Positions 26,701-41,444 of a stretch of DNA of 64,000 nt are shown piece after piece. Numbering within the stretch: the first letter of the stretch is position 1; every line of letters starts with the position of its first letter. The stretch spans positions 599,632 to 663,631 of the forward strand of contig MFFN01000004.1 of assembly GCA_001777915.1 (NCBI GenBank), read 5' to 3'. Both the position numbers and the translations under genes were made by a program. The DNA comes from Candidatus Edwardsbacteria bacterium RifOxyA12_full_54_48 (lineage in GTDB: Bacteria; Edwardsbacteria; AC1; EtOH8). The notes beneath the pieces are model-generated. The model was not told the DNA's origin. It made no database searches and saw only the letters and a list, made by a program, of their open reading frames with translations.

Positions 26701-27037
26701 TATATTGTAGGGGCGAAAGGTCTTTCGCCCGGACCTCATTACCAGGCAATACAGTCATTCCCGTGCCGACGGGAATCCATGGGACCAGCCCCTTTTTAAC
26801 CACCAAGACACCAAGGCACAGAGATTTTTGTCACCCTGAGTTTTCCTTCTGTCTGGCAGGATGAGTGCCTTCGCCGTAGCTGCGGCACTCGAGGTAGCCA
26901 ATTATAAAAGCGAAGGCGAAATGGGTGACGATAACGCCATTTCAACCACAGAGGGCACAAAGAAAACATTATCGTAGGGCGGATCGCGATCCGCCCAGGT
27001 TCTCCGCCTGCCAAGGCAGGTCATTCCGGTGCAGACG
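26701..27037 (+). repeat. Intergenic cluster of mixed palindromic and word repeats
   Basis: The gap 26681-27087 holds no gene. In order it contains: GTAGGGGCGA palindrome (GGGCGAAAG/CTTTCGCCC, 26711-26730); ATTCCCGT/ACGGGAAT hairpin (26757-26776); AACCACCAAGACACCAAGG word (26798-); GAGTGCC/GGCACTC hairpin (26863-26890); AACCACAGAGGGCACAAAG word (26943-); a perfect GGGCGGATCG/CGATCCGCCC palindrome (26977-26996); CCTGCC/GGCAGG hairpin (27007-27020); and another ATTCC hairpin. At least three repeat families are therefore stacked in one gap. Confidence 0.75.
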
Positions 27038-34964: not shown

Positions 34965-35762
34965 ATGATGAATAAAGGAAATCTTATCGCCATGTCTCTT
35001 ATGACGGCGGTCCTGATCCTGGCCGGATGCGGCCAGAAGCGGGAGGCGGTCATCATGGCCGGCTCCACCGCCTTCCAGCCCTTCGCCGAGAAGCTGGCCG
35101 ACCAGTTCATGGTCCAAAATCCCGGGATCAACGTCACCGTCCAGGGCGGCGGCTCGGCGGTGGGCATCCAGTCGGCCCTGGCCGGCACCGCCCAGATAGG
35201 GATGGCCGACCTGGTGCAGCTGCCCGAGGAGGCCAAGGATCTCACCGCCACCGAGGTGGCCCGGGACGGCATCGCCATCGTGATCAACCCCGGCAACAGG
35301 ATCGAGGGGCTGACCATCAAGCAGGTGCGGGAGATCTTCAATGGGGTCATCGCCAACTGGAAACAGGTGGGCGGAGATGATCGTCCGATCACGGTGGTAT
35401 CCCGCGAGGCCGGATCGGGAACCAGGACCTCCTTCGAACAGATAGTGGGCGATATATCGCTGATAAAAGAAGCCCTGATCCAGGACTCCAACGGCACCAT
35501 CCGGGAGACTGTGGCCAACGACGCCAATGCGGTGGGTTACCTGTCGCATGGTCTGATAAACGAGAAGATCAAGCCGGTCAGACTGGACGGCGTGGAGTGC
35601 ACCACCGAGCAGATCATCAGCGGAAAGTTCAAGCTGGTCCGTCCGGTGTTCCTGCTGACCCAGGGACAGCCCCAGGGAGCGGTCAAGCAGGTGATAGACT
35701 ACATGCTTTCGGCGGAGGGCCAGGAGACCATCAAGAGCAGCGGCCTGATCCCTGTCAAATAG
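34965..35762 (+). CDS. pstS: Phosphate ABC transporter substrate-binding lipoprotein
   Basis: PstS captures phosphate and delivers it to PstCA. The 265-residue protein has a lipobox (LILAGC, Cys22) and the PstS fold: AGSTAFQPFAEKLADQF, QGGGSAVGIQSALAG, and SREAGSGTRTSFEQIV supply the phosphate-binding Ser, Thr and Arg residues. It is shorter than the E. coli periplasmic form and belongs to the lipoprotein group. GAGGA precedes the ATG. It is the first gene of a pst operon reading pstS-pstC-pstA-pstB1-pstB2-phoU; no PhoB/PhoR pair is in the window. Confidence 0.93.
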   Translation: MMNKGNLIAMSLMTAVLILAGCGQKREAVIMAGSTAFQPFAEKLADQFMVQNPGINVTVQGGGSAVGIQSALAGTAQIGMADLVQLPEEAKDLTATEVARDGIAIVINPGNRIEGLTIKQVREIFNGVIANWKQVGGDDRPITVVSREAGSGTRTSFEQIVGDISLIKEALIQDSNGTIRETVANDANAVGYLSHGLINEKIKPVRLDGVECTTEQIISGKFKLVRPVFLLTQGQPQGAVKQVIDYMLSAEGQETIKSSGLIPVK

Positions 35763-35780: not shown

Positions 35781-36638
35781 ATGAAATTCTTAGGCGAGAA
35801 GGGCGTTCGGAGAGTGCTGGCGGGGATAGCTTTTTCGGCTATCTCGGCCCTGCTCCTTATCGCCCTTTTTATCATCAAGGAGGGCCTGCCGTTCATCATC
35901 AGCTACGGCCCCCTAAAATTCCTGTTTTCCTCCGACTGGCAGCCCCAGGCCGGAAGGTTCGGGATCTGGCCCATGATCGTGGCCTCGGTGTGGGTGACCC
36001 TGGGGGCCATGCTGCTGGGGGCCCCGTTGGGGGTGGCCTGCGCCGTCTTTTTGACGGAATTCGTTCCCCGCCGGGTGATGGGGGTGATCAAGCCCACCAT
36101 CGAGCTGCTGGCCGGCATTCCCTCGGTGGTCTACGGGTTCATGGGGGTGATGGTGCTGGCCCCGCTGATCCGCTCCCAGCTGGGCGGGCCGGGGCTGTCG
36201 GTGCTGGCCGGGGCCATCATCCTGGGCGTGATGATCCTGCCCACCATCATCAGCATCTCCATCGATTCCATCCAGTCGGTGCCCAATTCTTACCGGGAGG
36301 GCTCCTTGGCTTTGGGCGCCACCCATTGGCAGACCACCTATATGGTGACGGTGCCGGCCGCCAAATCCGGCATCATCGCGGCCATCATCCTGGGCATGGG
36401 CCGGGCCATCGGCGAGACCATGGCGGTGATCATGGTGGCCGGCAACGCGGTCAAGATCCCCATATCGGCCCTGGACTCGGTCCGGACCCTGACCGCCAAC
36501 ATCGCCCTGGAGATGGGATACGCCACCGGGCAGCACCGCCAGGCCCTGTTCGCCACCGGGGTGGTGCTGCTGGTGATAATCATGATCCTGAACTCCCTGG
36601 CCGGAATGGCCATCAGGAAGAAGGCGGGTAAAAGATGA
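35781..36638 (+). CDS. pstC: Phosphate ABC transporter permease PstC
   Basis: A 285-residue inner-membrane permease with about six helices. The EAA-loop that docks the ATPase is clear: YREGSLALGATHWQTTYMV, followed by GIIAAIILGMGRAIGETMAV. An N-terminal helix and the periplasmic loop (PLKFLFSSDWQPQ) match PstC. It lies 18 bases after pstS and overlaps pstA by four bases, so all are cotranslated. Confidence 0.93.
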   Translation: MKFLGEKGVRRVLAGIAFSAISALLLIALFIIKEGLPFIISYGPLKFLFSSDWQPQAGRFGIWPMIVASVWVTLGAMLLGAPLGVACAVFLTEFVPRRVMGVIKPTIELLAGIPSVVYGFMGVMVLAPLIRSQLGGPGLSVLAGAIILGVMILPTIISISIDSIQSVPNSYREGSLALGATHWQTTYMVTVPAAKSGIIAAIILGMGRAIGETMAVIMVAGNAVKIPISALDSVRTLTANIALEMGYATGQHRQALFATGVVLLVIIMILNSLAGMAIRKKAGKR

Positions 36639-37471
36639 GAGTGCCGCCCAAATATACCCAGATGGCAGCCAAGCTGGTGATGGGCCTGGCCACCCTGGCC
36701 ACCCTGGCCATCCTGGTGTTCATCATCCTGTTCGTGCTGGAGAAGGGCCTTCCGGTGGTGGGATTCAAATTCCTGCTGACCAGCCCCCAGGACATGGGAA
36801 AGGCCGGGGGCATCTTCCCGGTGGTGGTCGGGACCATCCTTTTGACCCTGGTGGCCATAGCCATCGCCACGCCATTGGGGGTGGGCACCGCCATCTACCT
36901 GACCGAATACACCAGGGAGAGCCGGGCCACCAAGATCATCCGTTTCGGGGCCGACTGCCTGGCCGGGATCCCCTCCATCATCTTCGGCCTTTTCGGCTTC
37001 ATCTTCTTCGTCACCATACTACAAATGGGGTGGTCCATCCTGTCCGGCGGACTGACCCTGGCCTTCATGATCCTGCCCACCATCATCCGGACCTCGGAGG
37101 AGGCCATCAAATCGGTGCCCAATTCCTTCCGGGAGGTGTCGTTCTCTCTGGGGGCCACCCGCTGGGAGACCGTCCAGAAAGTGGTGCTGCCCAGCGCCCT
37201 GCCGGGCATCGTCACCGGGGTGATGCTGGGGGTGGGACGCTCCATCGGCGAGACCGCCGCGGTGATCTTCACCGCCGGCTCCTCTCTCCGGATGCCGTCC
37301 TCGCTGATGGACTCGGTCCGCACCATGTCGGTGCATTTCTACATCCTGGCCCGGGAGGGCATCTCCACCGAGAACGCCTACGGCACCGCGGCCATCCTGG
37401 TGATCACCATTCTGCTGATAAACCTGACGGCCTACGGACTGATGAACCGCTTCGTGGCCAGGAACAACTGA
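36635..37471 (+). CDS. pstA: Phosphate ABC transporter permease PstA
   Basis: A 278-residue permease, the partner of PstC in the membrane channel. The docking loop reads FREVSFSLGATRWETVQKV and is followed by GIVTGVMLGVGRSIGETAAV. PstC and PstA docking loops differ, so each could prefer a different ATPase subunit, which is relevant to the two PstB proteins encoded next. The start ATG overlaps the pstC stop, and the pstB1 start follows four bases after the stop. Confidence 0.93.
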   Translation: MRVPPKYTQMAAKLVMGLATLATLAILVFIILFVLEKGLPVVGFKFLLTSPQDMGKAGGIFPVVVGTILLTLVAIAIATPLGVGTAIYLTEYTRESRATKIIRFGADCLAGIPSIIFGLFGFIFFVTILQMGWSILSGGLTLAFMILPTIIRTSEEAIKSVPNSFREVSFSLGATRWETVQKVVLPSALPGIVTGVMLGVGRSIGETAAVIFTAGSSLRMPSSLMDSVRTMSVHFYILAREGISTENAYGTAAILVITILLINLTAYGLMNRFVARNN

Positions 37472-37475
37472 TAGC

Positions 37476-38240
37476 ATGATGAGCAACGAAATAAAAATAT
37501 CGGCCCAGGACCTCAAGGCCTTCTACGGGCCGGAGCAGCTGCTGATGTCCCTCAACATGGACATCCAGGCCAACCAGATACTGGGCATCATCGGGCCTTC
37601 CGGCTCAGGCAAGACCACCTTCCTGCGCAGCCTGAACCGGCTCAACGACCTGGTGCACGGCTTCCGGATCGAGGGCCGCATCCTGCTGGACGGGCAGGAC
37701 ATCTATCACCCCAACTCCGACGTGGTGGCCCTGCGCAAACGGGTGGGAATGCTGTTCGCCCTGCCGGTGCCCCTGCCCAAGAGCATCTACGAGAATGTGG
37801 TCTACGGACCCAGGCTGTCGGGCGCAGGAGACCGGAAAAAACTCGATCAGCTGGTGGAGGCCAGCCTGAAGTCGGCCTTCATCTGGGACGAGGTCAAGGA
37901 CCGTCTGAATTCACCGGCCATGCGCCTGTCCGGAGGACAGCAGCAGCGGCTGTGCCTGGCCAGGATCCTGGCCCAGGAGCCGGAGGTGATCCTGCTGGAC
38001 GAACCTTGCTCCGGGCTGGACCCCATCTCCACCGCCAAGATCGAGGAGGCCCTGACTATCCTCAAGCAGAAGTACACCGTCATCCTGGTCACCAACAACA
38101 CCAAGCAGGCGGCCCGGGTGGCCGACCAGACCGCCTTCTTCCTGATGGGCTCGCTTATCGAATACGGACCGACCAAAGATCTGTTCACCGTGCCAAATGA
38201 CAAAAGGACCAGCGATTACATCACCGGACGTTTCGGGTAA
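37476..38240 (+). CDS. pstB: PstB1: phosphate ABC ATPase with altered Q-loop and H-switch
   Basis: A 254-residue PstB-like ATPase. Walker A is GPSGSGKT (40-47), the signature is a perfect LSGGQ (151-155) and Walker B is VILLDEP with Glu176. Two normally invariant residues are changed: the Q-loop reads GMLFALPVPLP with Ala95 in place of Gln (PstB consensus VFQKPNPFP), and the switch reads LVTNNTKQAA with Asn207 in place of His. These should cripple hydrolysis at its own Walker site while leaving its signature able to serve a partner. The reading frame is clean, so this is not decay. The tail RTSDYITGRFG is conserved PstB. Confidence 0.93.
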   Translation: MMSNEIKISAQDLKAFYGPEQLLMSLNMDIQANQILGIIGPSGSGKTTFLRSLNRLNDLVHGFRIEGRILLDGQDIYHPNSDVVALRKRVGMLFALPVPLPKSIYENVVYGPRLSGAGDRKKLDQLVEASLKSAFIWDEVKDRLNSPAMRLSGGQQQRLCLARILAQEPEVILLDEPCSGLDPISTAKIEEALTILKQKYTVILVTNNTKQAARVADQTAFFLMGSLIEYGPTKDLFTVPNDKRTSDYITGRFG

Positions 38241-38362
38241 AGAGGTACCTGCCCACTAAACACACGAAAGGTTATTAACCGGTCAAAACAAGATATAAGA
38301 ACAATCCATTCGGCATGATACAGATCGAAAGATCCACCTATTTCCGCTTTTAACGAAATCAA

Positions 38363-39118
38363 ATGAACAACAAGATAGAAATAAATCGGCTCAACCTTTA
38401 TTACGGCAAATTCCAGGCCCTTAAGGCGGTGGACATGCCGATAAGGGAGAATTCCATCACCGCCCTGATCGGGCCTTCGGGTTGCGGCAAATCCACCCTG
38501 CTGCGCTGCCTCAACCGGATGAACGACCTGATCGCCGGGGTCAGGATAGACGGACGGGTGCTGCTGGACGGCAGGAATATCTACCGTCACGGCCTGAACG
38601 TGCCGGAGCTGAGAAAAAGGGTGGGCATGGTGTTCCAGCGGCCCAATCCCTTTCCCCATTCGGTGTTCGACAACGTGGCCTACGGGCTGAAGGTGGCCGG
38701 GATCAGTGATAAGAACCGCATTTCCGAAACAGTGGAGCGCAGCCTCAAAGGGGCCTGGCTGTGGGAGAATTTAAAGGATAGATTGGACCGTCCGGCCCTG
38801 GAACTGCCGTTGGACCAGCAGCAGCGTTTATGCATCGCCCGTTTGCTGGCGGTGGAGCCGGAGGTCATTCTGATGGACGAGCCTTGCTCGGCCCTGGATC
38901 CCATCGCCACCATGAAGGTGGAGGAGCTGATGCTGGATCTGTGCAAACGTTACACCATCGCCATCGTCACCCACAACATGCAGCAGGCGGCCCGGGTATC
39001 GGAATATTCCGGCTACATGCTGCTGGGCGATATGGTGGAGTTCGACCTGACCGCCAATATCTTCACCAACCCCAGGGACGCCCGCACCCAGGATTACATC
39101 ACCGGCCGCTACGGGTGA
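38363..39118 (+). CDS. pstB: PstB2: phosphate ABC ATPase with altered signature motif
   Basis: A 251-residue PstB paralogue. Walker A (GPSGCGKS, 37-44), Q-loop ([10 protein letters not shown], Gln92), Walker B (VILMDEP, Glu173) and switch His204 (VTHNMQQAA) are all canonical. The signature is not: LSGGQ is replaced by LPLDQ (148-152), followed by a normal QQRLCIAR. The loss complements that of PstB1, so a PstB1-PstB2 heterodimer would have exactly one complete ATP site: the PstB2 Walker site with the PstB1 signature. It lies 122 bases after pstB1 with no terminator between them. I see no ribosome site near the ATG. Confidence 0.93.
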
Positions 39119-39149: not shown

Positions 39150-39612
39150 TTCTCTCACCAAGCCACCAAGGATTTATCAATTTACTTAGGCACACTTTGA
39201 GAACCCAGGCATTTGCGTCATTCTGGGCTTGCTTTGAAGCTATCCACGTCGAAGAATCTGTCGATGGATCACTGAAGGTATATCACACAAAGCCACTAAG
39301 ACACGACGTTATTACTTAATAGAGCATTGTCACCACTTCGAAAATTTTATTTTTGCCAACCTCAGTGCAGGCTCTGGGGTCTCTTCCCGCTTGGCAGGTT
39401 GAAGGGGTGGCAAAAGGCTATGCTCACACATTCAGCCAGTCAGGCAAGGTGGCCTTCTCTGTGTGACAGTTTTATTTTTAAGCGTTCAAATTTTAATTTA
39501 TCACACAAAGCCGCCGAGCCACGAAGCCCACTGGTTTGCCAGAGATGGATTCGGTTGATGGCTACAAGTTAATTTATAGATTAATTCAGCTTGGTGTCTT
39601 GGTGGCAAATAA
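39150..39612 (+). repeat. Scattered CACAAAGCCACCAAG-type repeats between pstB2 and phoU
   Basis: The gap 39119-39662 has no gene. Copies of the CCAAGCCACCAAG word lie at 39155-39175, 39283-39308 and 39501-39530, and an inverted copy (TTGGTGTCTTGGTGGCAAA) at 39591-39609. Between them is a CTCAGTGCAGG word like those near 2060 and 2107. Spacing is irregular and the copies are diverged. The pst operon is therefore interrupted by about 540 bases of repeat DNA. Confidence 0.7.
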
Positions 39613-39662: not shown

Positions 39663-40325
39663 ATGGAAAGACATTTTGATACCGAGTTGACCCAGCTGAA
39701 ACAGCAGCTGCTGAAGATGGGGGCCCTGGCCGAGGCCATGATAGACGCCGCGGTCACCGCCCTGGTGGAAAGGAACGCTGATCAGTTGAAGCAGATATAT
39801 GAGAATGAGAAGCAGGTCAATAACCTTCAGGTGAGCATAGACGAGGACTGCTTGCGATTGACCGCCCTCTACCAGCCCACCGCCGGAGACCTGCGCTTCC
39901 TGCTGGGAGCCTCCAAGATCAACACCGAACTGGAGCGGCTGGGCGACCAGGCCATCAACATCTGCGAGGTGGTCAATAAGCTGCTGCAGGAGCCTCAGCT
40001 CAAGCCGCTGATAGACATCCCCAAGATGGTGTCCATCGCCACCGACATGGTCCGGGACAGCCTGAACGCCTTCGTGGAGCGCAATGTCGACAAGGCCCGG
40101 GCGGTGCTGCTGCAGGACGACCAGCTGGACGACCTGAAGGACAAGATAGTGGCCGAGCTGACCGAGTTCATGACCAAGGATTCCGGCTCGGTCAGCCGGG
40201 CCATTCAGCTGATCCTGGTGGCCCGCAGTCTGGAACGGATAGGCGACCATGCCACCAACATCGCCGAGGACGTCATCTTCGTGGTGCAGGGCAGGGATAT
40301 CCGGCATCATGCGCAAGATATGTGA
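39663..40325 (+). CDS. phoU: Phosphate signalling complex protein PhoU
   Basis: PhoU restrains PstSCAB and PHO signalling when phosphate is plentiful. The 220-residue protein is all-helical with two three-helix PhoU repeats; the E/DxxxD metal motifs appear in ELERLGDQAINICE and SLERIGDHATNIAED. GGGGAG precedes the ATG. It is separated from pstB2 by the repeat-filled gap and so may have its own promoter. The NYN-domain gene follows closely. Confidence 0.95.
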   Translation: MERHFDTELTQLKQQLLKMGALAEAMIDAAVTALVERNADQLKQIYENEKQVNNLQVSIDEDCLRLTALYQPTAGDLRFLLGASKINTELERLGDQAINICEVVNKLLQEPQLKPLIDIPKMVSIATDMVRDSLNAFVERNVDKARAVLLQDDQLDDLKDKIVAELTEFMTKDSGSVSRAIQLILVARSLERIGDHATNIAEDVIFVVQGRDIRHHAQDM

Positions 40326-40898: not shown

Positions 40899-41444
40899 AT
40901 GCTGGCTCCGTTATTCATCCTTAAAAACACCAAAGGCAAGGGCTGCGGGCTTTTCGCCAAACGGGACATTCCCAAGGGAACGGTGGTGTTCTATGAGTGT
41001 TCGCAATGCACCGTCATCCCCAAAGCCAAATTCGACAAGCTGACCAAGACCCAAAAGGAAAAGCTGTTGTTCCACGCCTACACCCGCCAGGACGGCTCGG
41101 TGGTCAATCCCTGCGGCGATTCCATTTACATGAACCATTCCTGTGATCCCAATATCCTGGATACCGGAAAGGGTTTTGATGTGGTGGTCCGGGACATCAA
41201 AAAAGGCCAGGAGGCCACCTGCGATTACCGGGTCTTTTATGATAAGGATTGGGGCTTTGAATGTCATTGTGGCAGCAAAAACTGCTGCGGGACATTCACC
41301 TGTCGCCGGCCGCTGGCCTCCGGGGTCAAGGCCTTTTGGGAAAAAATGACGGCCCCGGCGTTGAAACGGATATCGAAAGTACCCCAGCCGCTCAAAGAGC
41401 AATTTCTGAAGGAGTATCCGGCCAAGGCCCGGTATTTCAAATAG
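40899..41444 (+). CDS. SET domain protein-lysine methyltransferase-like protein
   Basis: A 181-residue protein with a complete small SET domain. The N-terminal GKGCGLFAKRDIPKGTVVFYE starts the fold; the knot motif YMNHSCDPN supplies the SAM- and lysine-site residues; CDYRVFYDKDWGFECHCGS leads into a post-SET cysteine cluster, CHCGSKNCCGTF. The family methylates lysines, mostly on histones in eukaryotes; bacterial targets are rarely known. AAGGGGG precedes the ATG. The gene stands alone with a hairpin downstream at 41523, giving no context clue to its target. Confidence 0.88.
   Translation: MLAPLFILKNTKGKGCGLFAKRDIPKGTVVFYECSQCTVIPKAKFDKLTKTQKEKLLFHAYTRQDGSVVNPCGDSIYMNHSCDPNILDTGKGFDVVVRDIKKGQEATCDYRVFYDKDWGFECHCGSKNCCGTFTCRRPLASGVKAFWEKMTAPALKRISKVPQPLKEQFLKEYPAKARYFK

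Follow-up and report, generated by a model that had tools for sequence, protein, structure and literature searches.

In the E. coli phosphate importer PstSCAB, PstB forms a homodimer whose two ATP sites are both complete (PDB 9k3x, 9k3s). Each ATP site of an ABC protein is composed of Walker A, Walker B, the Q-loop and the switch of one subunit, and the signature of the other (PMC3434365; PMC7756269). Two pstB genes in tandem within one pst operon have been described as PstB1/PstB2 in E. faecalis and as PstBA/PstBB in B. subtilis (PMC12096839; PMC11466899), and a tandem PstB pair of Nostoc punctiforme has been mentioned (PMC12096839). In the E. faecalis copies, the motifs that were compared are canonical (PMC12096839).

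Outside the Pst family, TAP1/2, TM287/288, BmrCD, CFTR and MRP1, which are exporters or a channel, have deviations that are distributed over two NBDs and affect one composite site (PMC7756269). In exporters of this type, the degenerate site is thought to remain closed or occupied, thereby controlling the consensus site, and loss of transport has been reported for Pdr5 on conversion of both sites to the canonical form (PMC7756269). Importers, too, are already known to carry degenerate sites: one has been noted from sequence in RbsA and NupO, which have fused NBDs, have lost the Walker A Lys and are filed as type II importers (PMC11466899). The E. coli importer DppBCDF has two distinct, separately encoded NBD subunits, DppD and DppF, but the motifs of both are working and both hydrolyse ATP (PMC12136057).

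A pst operon with two complementary PstB variants

The window analysed here, a stretch of 64,000 nucleotides from Candidatus Edwardsbacteria bacterium RifOxyA12_full_54_48, contains an operon with the gene order pstS-pstC-pstA-pstB1-pstB2-phoU, in which the genes flanking the pstB pair were identified by profile scores (Table 1). Both PstB1 and PstB2 exceed the curated equivalog cut-off for PstB (NCBIfam TIGR00972, 343.2 bits), and their genes adjoin pstS, pstC, pstA and phoU. The AlphaFold2 (AF2) single-chain models of PstB1 (pLDDT 94.5) and PstB2 (pLDDT 95.2) both show a confident, intact NBD fold, and among PDB entries the PstB1 model most closely matches E. coli PstB chains (9k3s, TM 0.91; 9k3x, TM 0.94, with 51% identity to 9k3x_C). 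Operon, family and fold are common to this system and canonical PstSCAB. However, neither protein has the full motif set that a homodimer needs for both ATP sites to be complete, and the system is a variant rather than a standard form of Pst.

The original prediction held that PstB1 combines an LSGGQ signature with Ala95 and Asn207, that PstB2 combines Gln92 and His204 with an LPLDQ signature, and that both proteins retain Walker A and the Walker B Glu. All of these residues were confirmed in the sequence at the named positions, and the Walker A Lys and Walker B Asp-Glu are present in both proteins. Because the signature comes from the subunit opposite to the one providing Walker motifs, Q-loop and switch, a dimer of PstB1 and PstB2 is predicted to have one complete and one degenerate site, with the key losses confined to the latter.

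Table 1. Features of the asymmetric pst operon, in window coordinates. PstB1 residue numbers count from the first ATG (254-aa numbering).
Feature	Position	Strand	Basis or remark
pstS, phosphate-binding protein	34965..35762	+	TIGR02136 214.8 bits, cut-off 206.6; conserved operon order
pstC, permease	35781..36638	+	TIGR02138 291.9 bits, cut-off 196.45
pstA, permease	36635..37471	+	TIGR00974 282 bits, cut-off 193.45
pstB1, ATPase subunit without Q-loop Gln and switch His	37476..38240	+	254 aa; TIGR00972 353.8 bits
PstB1 Walker A GPSGSGKT (degenerate site)	37593..37616	+	class-specific Cys to Ser, Ser to Thr here
PstB1 Ala95 replacing Q-loop Gln, codon GCC	37758..37760	+	A/P/D in 42/42 PstB1-type
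PstB1 signature LSGGQ 151-155, intact, predicted to serve complete site	37926..37940	+	sequence
PstB1 Walker B PEVILLDE, catalytic Glu kept	37980..38003	+	sequence
PstB1 Asn207 replacing switch His, codon AAC	38094..38096	+	Asn in 42/42 PstB1-type
pstB2, ATPase subunit with Q-loop and switch intact, signature lost	38363..39118	+	251 aa; TIGR00972 372.1 bits
PstB2 Walker A (complete site)	38471..38497	+	sequence
PstB2 Q-loop Gln92	38636..38638	+	sequence
PstB2 degenerate signature LPLDQ 148-152, Asp at second Gly	38804..38818	+	Asp/Glu there in 42/43
PstB2 Walker B PEVILMDE	38858..38881	+	sequence
PstB2 switch His204	38972..38974	+	sequence
phoU, final gene of conserved operon	39663..40325	+	TIGR02135 211.8 bits, cut-off 130.25

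The surroundings of the pair show further features. The pstB1-pstB2 spacer (window 38241-38362; also L039, L040 and L041) is highly variable within the genus, though the pair itself is fixed; 125, 483, 733 and 966 bp separate the aligned coding stretches. A dispersed short repeat, CACAAAGCCACNAAG, follows pstB2 and has five matches in the window (39156-39604, 26801-26815) versus 0.45 expected. Downstream of phoU, at window 40899-41444, lies a gene for a bacterial SET-domain protein (PF00856, 49.7 bits).

Conservation of the pair among close relatives

The pair was found in 9/10 genomes of the same family, the window genome included; in the tenth (G004, 94% complete), no PstB was detected at the thresholds used. 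All nine pairs consist of a PstB1 with Ala, Asn and LSGGQ and a PstB2 with Gln, His and LPLDQ. The same nine genomes each encode a third PstB, which is canonical in 9/9 and has its own permease genes adjoining wherever enough flank was fetched. In the window's genome, this copy belongs to a second, canonical operon, pstS-C-A-B-phoU, on another contig (L038 7161-11367), while in three relatives (G005, G006 and G007) the canonical cassette lies directly upstream of the asymmetric operon.

Comparisons within the genus gave dN/dS values of 0.08–0.18 for PstB1, 0.07–0.16 for PstB2 and 0.02–0.06 for the canonical copy. Given values of 0.07–0.18, PstB1 and PstB2 are both under purifying selection, somewhat relaxed compared with canonical PstB. 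The Asn207 codon shows synonymous AAC/AAT variation among relatives. We therefore rejected a sequencing error or lone mutation as the source of the replacements: every same-family relative having the genes has the same residues, the Asn207 codon varies synonymously, and dN/dS is low.

These data also bear on the view that PstB1 and PstB2 are redundant, decaying paralogues, that is, tandem duplicates that drift while the canonical third PstB performs transport. The complete canonical cluster elsewhere in the window genome is consistent with this view. However, the dN/dS values speak against it, and decay would neither repeat the same two losses in 42 proteins together with a complementary loss in the partner nor place an acid at one fixed position of the signature. 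Furthermore, no PstB besides the pair was found in at least seven near-complete genomes (see below). We consider decay largely refuted and assign it the slightest of chances.

An exactly complementary pattern across bacteria

We surveyed a domain-wide sample of 386 genomes with PstB1 as the query and a second sample of 385 genomes, partly overlapping the first, with a PstB1-type profile, and re-searched multi-copy genomes. In addition, 80 named loci were fetched via generic PstB patterns, which returned mostly canonical proteins, so that the list of named hosts is a sample. All PstBs from the fetched DNA were classified by their aligned Q-loop, signature and switch residues. The survey sample was partly selected by similarity to PstB1 and PstB2, and the numbers consequently show the rule, not the frequency.

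The 231 distinct PstB-like proteins comprise 144 canonical ones, 42 with an intact signature and replacements of both Gln and His, 44 that keep Gln and His and have lost the signature, and one odd protein. In the second group, Gln is replaced by Ala (36), Pro (4) or Asp (2), and His by Asn in all 42; in the third, the signature reads LPLDQ, LSLEQ, LSAEQ, LSPEQ, LTLEQ, LSGEQ, LQLEQ and others. A chance origin of the pattern is excluded, because it is present in full in 42 PstB1-type and 43 PstB2-type proteins and in part in 0/144 canonical PstBs. Two of the 231 proteins break the rule, neither of them a member of an asymmetric pair. One is the third PstB-like gene of L240 (7517-8257), located 3′ of an asymmetric pair, which keeps Gln, carries Asn in place of the switch His, reads LSNGQ at the signature, and is a different kind of degenerate PstB; the other, in L248 (4415-5161), is a non-tandem, long-branch protein with Gln, His and LSLGQ. 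In a sub-group comprising L240, L241, L242 and L243, the Q-loop Gln is replaced by Pro (FPLPVGLP) and the switch reads VTNLVQQ.

Forty-one of 45 distinct tandem pairs consist of a gene lacking Gln and His followed by a gene lacking the signature, always in that order. The other four comprise three pairs that are canonical in both copies, by which we rejected the idea that tandem pstB genes as such cause degeneracy, and one PstB2-type gene followed by the odd protein. Two pstB genes in a row are indeed known in Firmicutes, as the original prediction stated, but those copies are canonical: the sole named Firmicute pair in our set, that of Ammoniphilus (L112), is canonical in both PstBs and lies outside both asymmetric clades in the second tree described below. 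The window pair shares with the Firmicute pairs the adjacency of two pstB genes and lacks their canonical motifs, and an identity with the Firmicute-type tandem PstB was rejected on the basis of the E. faecalis and Ammoniphilus pairs.

The E. faecalis system raises the alternative that two PstB1 or two PstB2 assemble as homodimers on one shared PstC-PstA, since deletions of pstB1 and pstB2 differ there and PstB2 overexpression replaces PstB1 (PMC12096839). The E. faecalis PstBs, however, are canonical in all motifs, whereas homodimers of the proteins studied here would have zero complete sites, something essential being absent from both, and 41 pairs show exactly complementary losses. Alternative homodimers are thus very improbable.

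In the 386-genome sample, 18 of about 256 family codes include asymmetric pairs, and the 385-genome sample adds one further family (f264), giving at least 19 coded families. Named hosts include Aminicenantes (L103), Elusimicrobia (L104), Planctomycetota (L107), WOR-1 (L109), Ignavibacteriota (L125) and Syntrophorhabdus (L137); no cyanobacterium is named as such in the fetched set. Two genomes appeared to lack a complete pair: in G339, PstB2 is encoded on a different contig, so that the pair is split, and G247 probably has an operon split by contig breaks. The original prediction had counted canonical residues in homologous operons as evidence against the pair; the changed residues were instead found to be conserved together. 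Its residue pattern is correct, but its scope was too narrow, as the pair represents a conserved multi-phylum system rather than a one-genome oddity.

To locate the class-specific changes, we screened all alignment columns against 144 canonical PstBs, selecting those in which canonical agreement is ≥80% and the class keeps that residue in ≤20% (253-aa numbering). PstB2-type proteins depart in only three columns, namely both signature glycines and the nearby residue 161; the second glycine (n = 43) is replaced by Glu in 30 proteins, by Asp in 12 and by Tyr in one. PstB1-type proteins depart in and just before Walker A, at Q-loop positions 94, 97 and 99, in the D-loop (Ala to Gly), at two helix positions (163 and 191) and at switch positions 203, 206, 208 and 209, while the full-column screen found no PstB1-type departure at LSGGQ or the catalytic Glu. 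This unbiased screen supports the earlier proposal that all changes fall on one composite site: losses across the two NBDs are confined to that site, and the Walker B Asp-Glu is kept in 42/42 PstB1-type proteins.

Trees were built after removal of the Q-loop, signature and switch columns (quick trees with SH-aLRT support, without bootstraps). PstB1-type proteins group in a single clade (SH-aLRT 97 in the first tree and 95 in the second), PstB2-type proteins form one clade in the first tree (97) and likewise in the second except for the non-tandem outlier L248, and the sub-clades of the two types match. The distance matrices of PstB1 and PstB2 are correlated over 41 pairs (r = 0.86) and after thinning to 29 pairs (r = 0.77; 0/2000 permutations as high), which shows co-inheritance as a pair and, as shared ancestry alone suffices, is no proof of contact. 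Median identity is 56–59% between distant pairs and 50% within a pair. The PstC and PstA trees, which carry long-branch warnings, place the asymmetric system in two groups, not one; separate PstC/PstA clades are only partly supported, and we set them aside as an argument.

The order pstS-pstC-pstA-pstB1-pstB2-phoU is retained in nearly all loci with enough flank, and a coexisting canonical pstB has its own pstS/C/A genes. In seven genomes (G192, G155, G156, G293, G365, G065 and G208; 92–99% complete), and likewise in G265 (97% complete), the pair members are the only PstB matches. Because both PstB matches in these near-complete genomes are pair members, the asymmetric Pst is the sole Pst system in several organisms, barring genes missed in draft assemblies.

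This distribution is relevant to a further explanation, in which the heterodimer acts mainly as a Pi sensor for PhoU (and PhoR), the degenerate site slowing the cycle so that the state of the transporter reports Pi, while another system performs bulk uptake. Consistent with such a split, pstB2 is followed by phoU in nearly all operons, many hosts also have a canonical cassette, and E. coli PstB mutants predicted to be state-locked set PhoR signalling (PMC5775613). Against it, the complete site is fully conserved, PstS, PstC and PstA are retained, and the pair is without another PstB in several genomes; nor does a signalling role exclude transport. We regard a mainly regulatory role as improbable.

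A predicted one-site importer

It is highly probable, in our judgement, that the operon encodes a PstSCAB-type phosphate importer driven by PstB1 and PstB2 as an obligate heterodimer, in which one ATP site is catalytic and the other degenerate, and the best reading of the pair is that it is ancient and forms a one-site type I importer. Specifically, PstB1 and PstB2 would pair head-to-tail under PstC-PstA, creating two unequal ATP sites. The catalytic site would be formed by Walker A/B, Gln92 and His204 of PstB2 and LSGGQ of PstB1, and the degenerate site by Walker A/B of PstB1, without Gln and His, and the acidic signature LPLDQ of PstB2. ATP hydrolysis at the single catalytic site would power the PstC-PstA cycle, with Pi as the putative substrate, as judged from family assignment.

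The degenerate site would hold nucleotide without useful hydrolysis or be partly open, serving as a hinge or clamp. Productive hydrolysis there is unlikely, because Gln and His are missing and the signature faced is acidic. Keeping the Walker A Lys and the Walker B Asp-Glu, the site may nevertheless hold nucleotide, and a clamp role is proposed by analogy with CFTR, TAP and TM287/288. More tentatively, and with a likelihood that we place a little below even, the pair may define a widespread, ancient Pst branch with one catalytic site, one ATP per cycle and a nucleotide-filled dead site acting as a permanent clamp.

Loss of the catalytic Glu at the degenerate site is common, though not universal, among exporters. 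In the pair studied here, by contrast, it is Gln, His and the signature that have gone, whereas the Glu remains, so that residual hydrolysis is possible. The NBDs are, moreover, separate proteins of a binding-protein-dependent importer. Two further points weigh against the proposed mechanism: pstB1 and pstB2 of G339 are on different contigs, and replacement of the switch His by Asn alone is tolerated in one exporter, Asn mutants of MRP1 NBS2 being reported to have retained transport (PMC7756269). Judged by its motifs, the pair still stands as a probable counterpart of ABC transporters with one degenerate site, differing from RbsA and NupO in its two separate genes and from DppBCDF in its predicted single working site.

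The second signature glycine replaced in PstB2 is equivalent to CFTR Gly551 (CFTR LSGGQ, residues 548–552). The CFTR substitution G551D results in a severe gating defect (PMC3434365). PstB2 offers a selected, presumably working context for an acid at this position.

A literature search, which covered few subscription journals, found no site-asymmetric PstB pair. An exactly complementary broken PstB pair in many bacterial phyla thus seems to have gone unnoticed, apparently because both genes are annotated simply as pstB, a label that the present findings would correct. Whether one or two ATP are hydrolysed per cycle of an ABC importer is a long-standing question that has usually been tackled with engineered mutants. 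PstB1/PstB2 appears to be a natural experiment on this question, for which the canonical cassette that often shares the genome provides a matched control. If the proposed mechanism is true, the pair would represent a natural one-site type I importer, often coexisting with a two-site Pst in the same cell.
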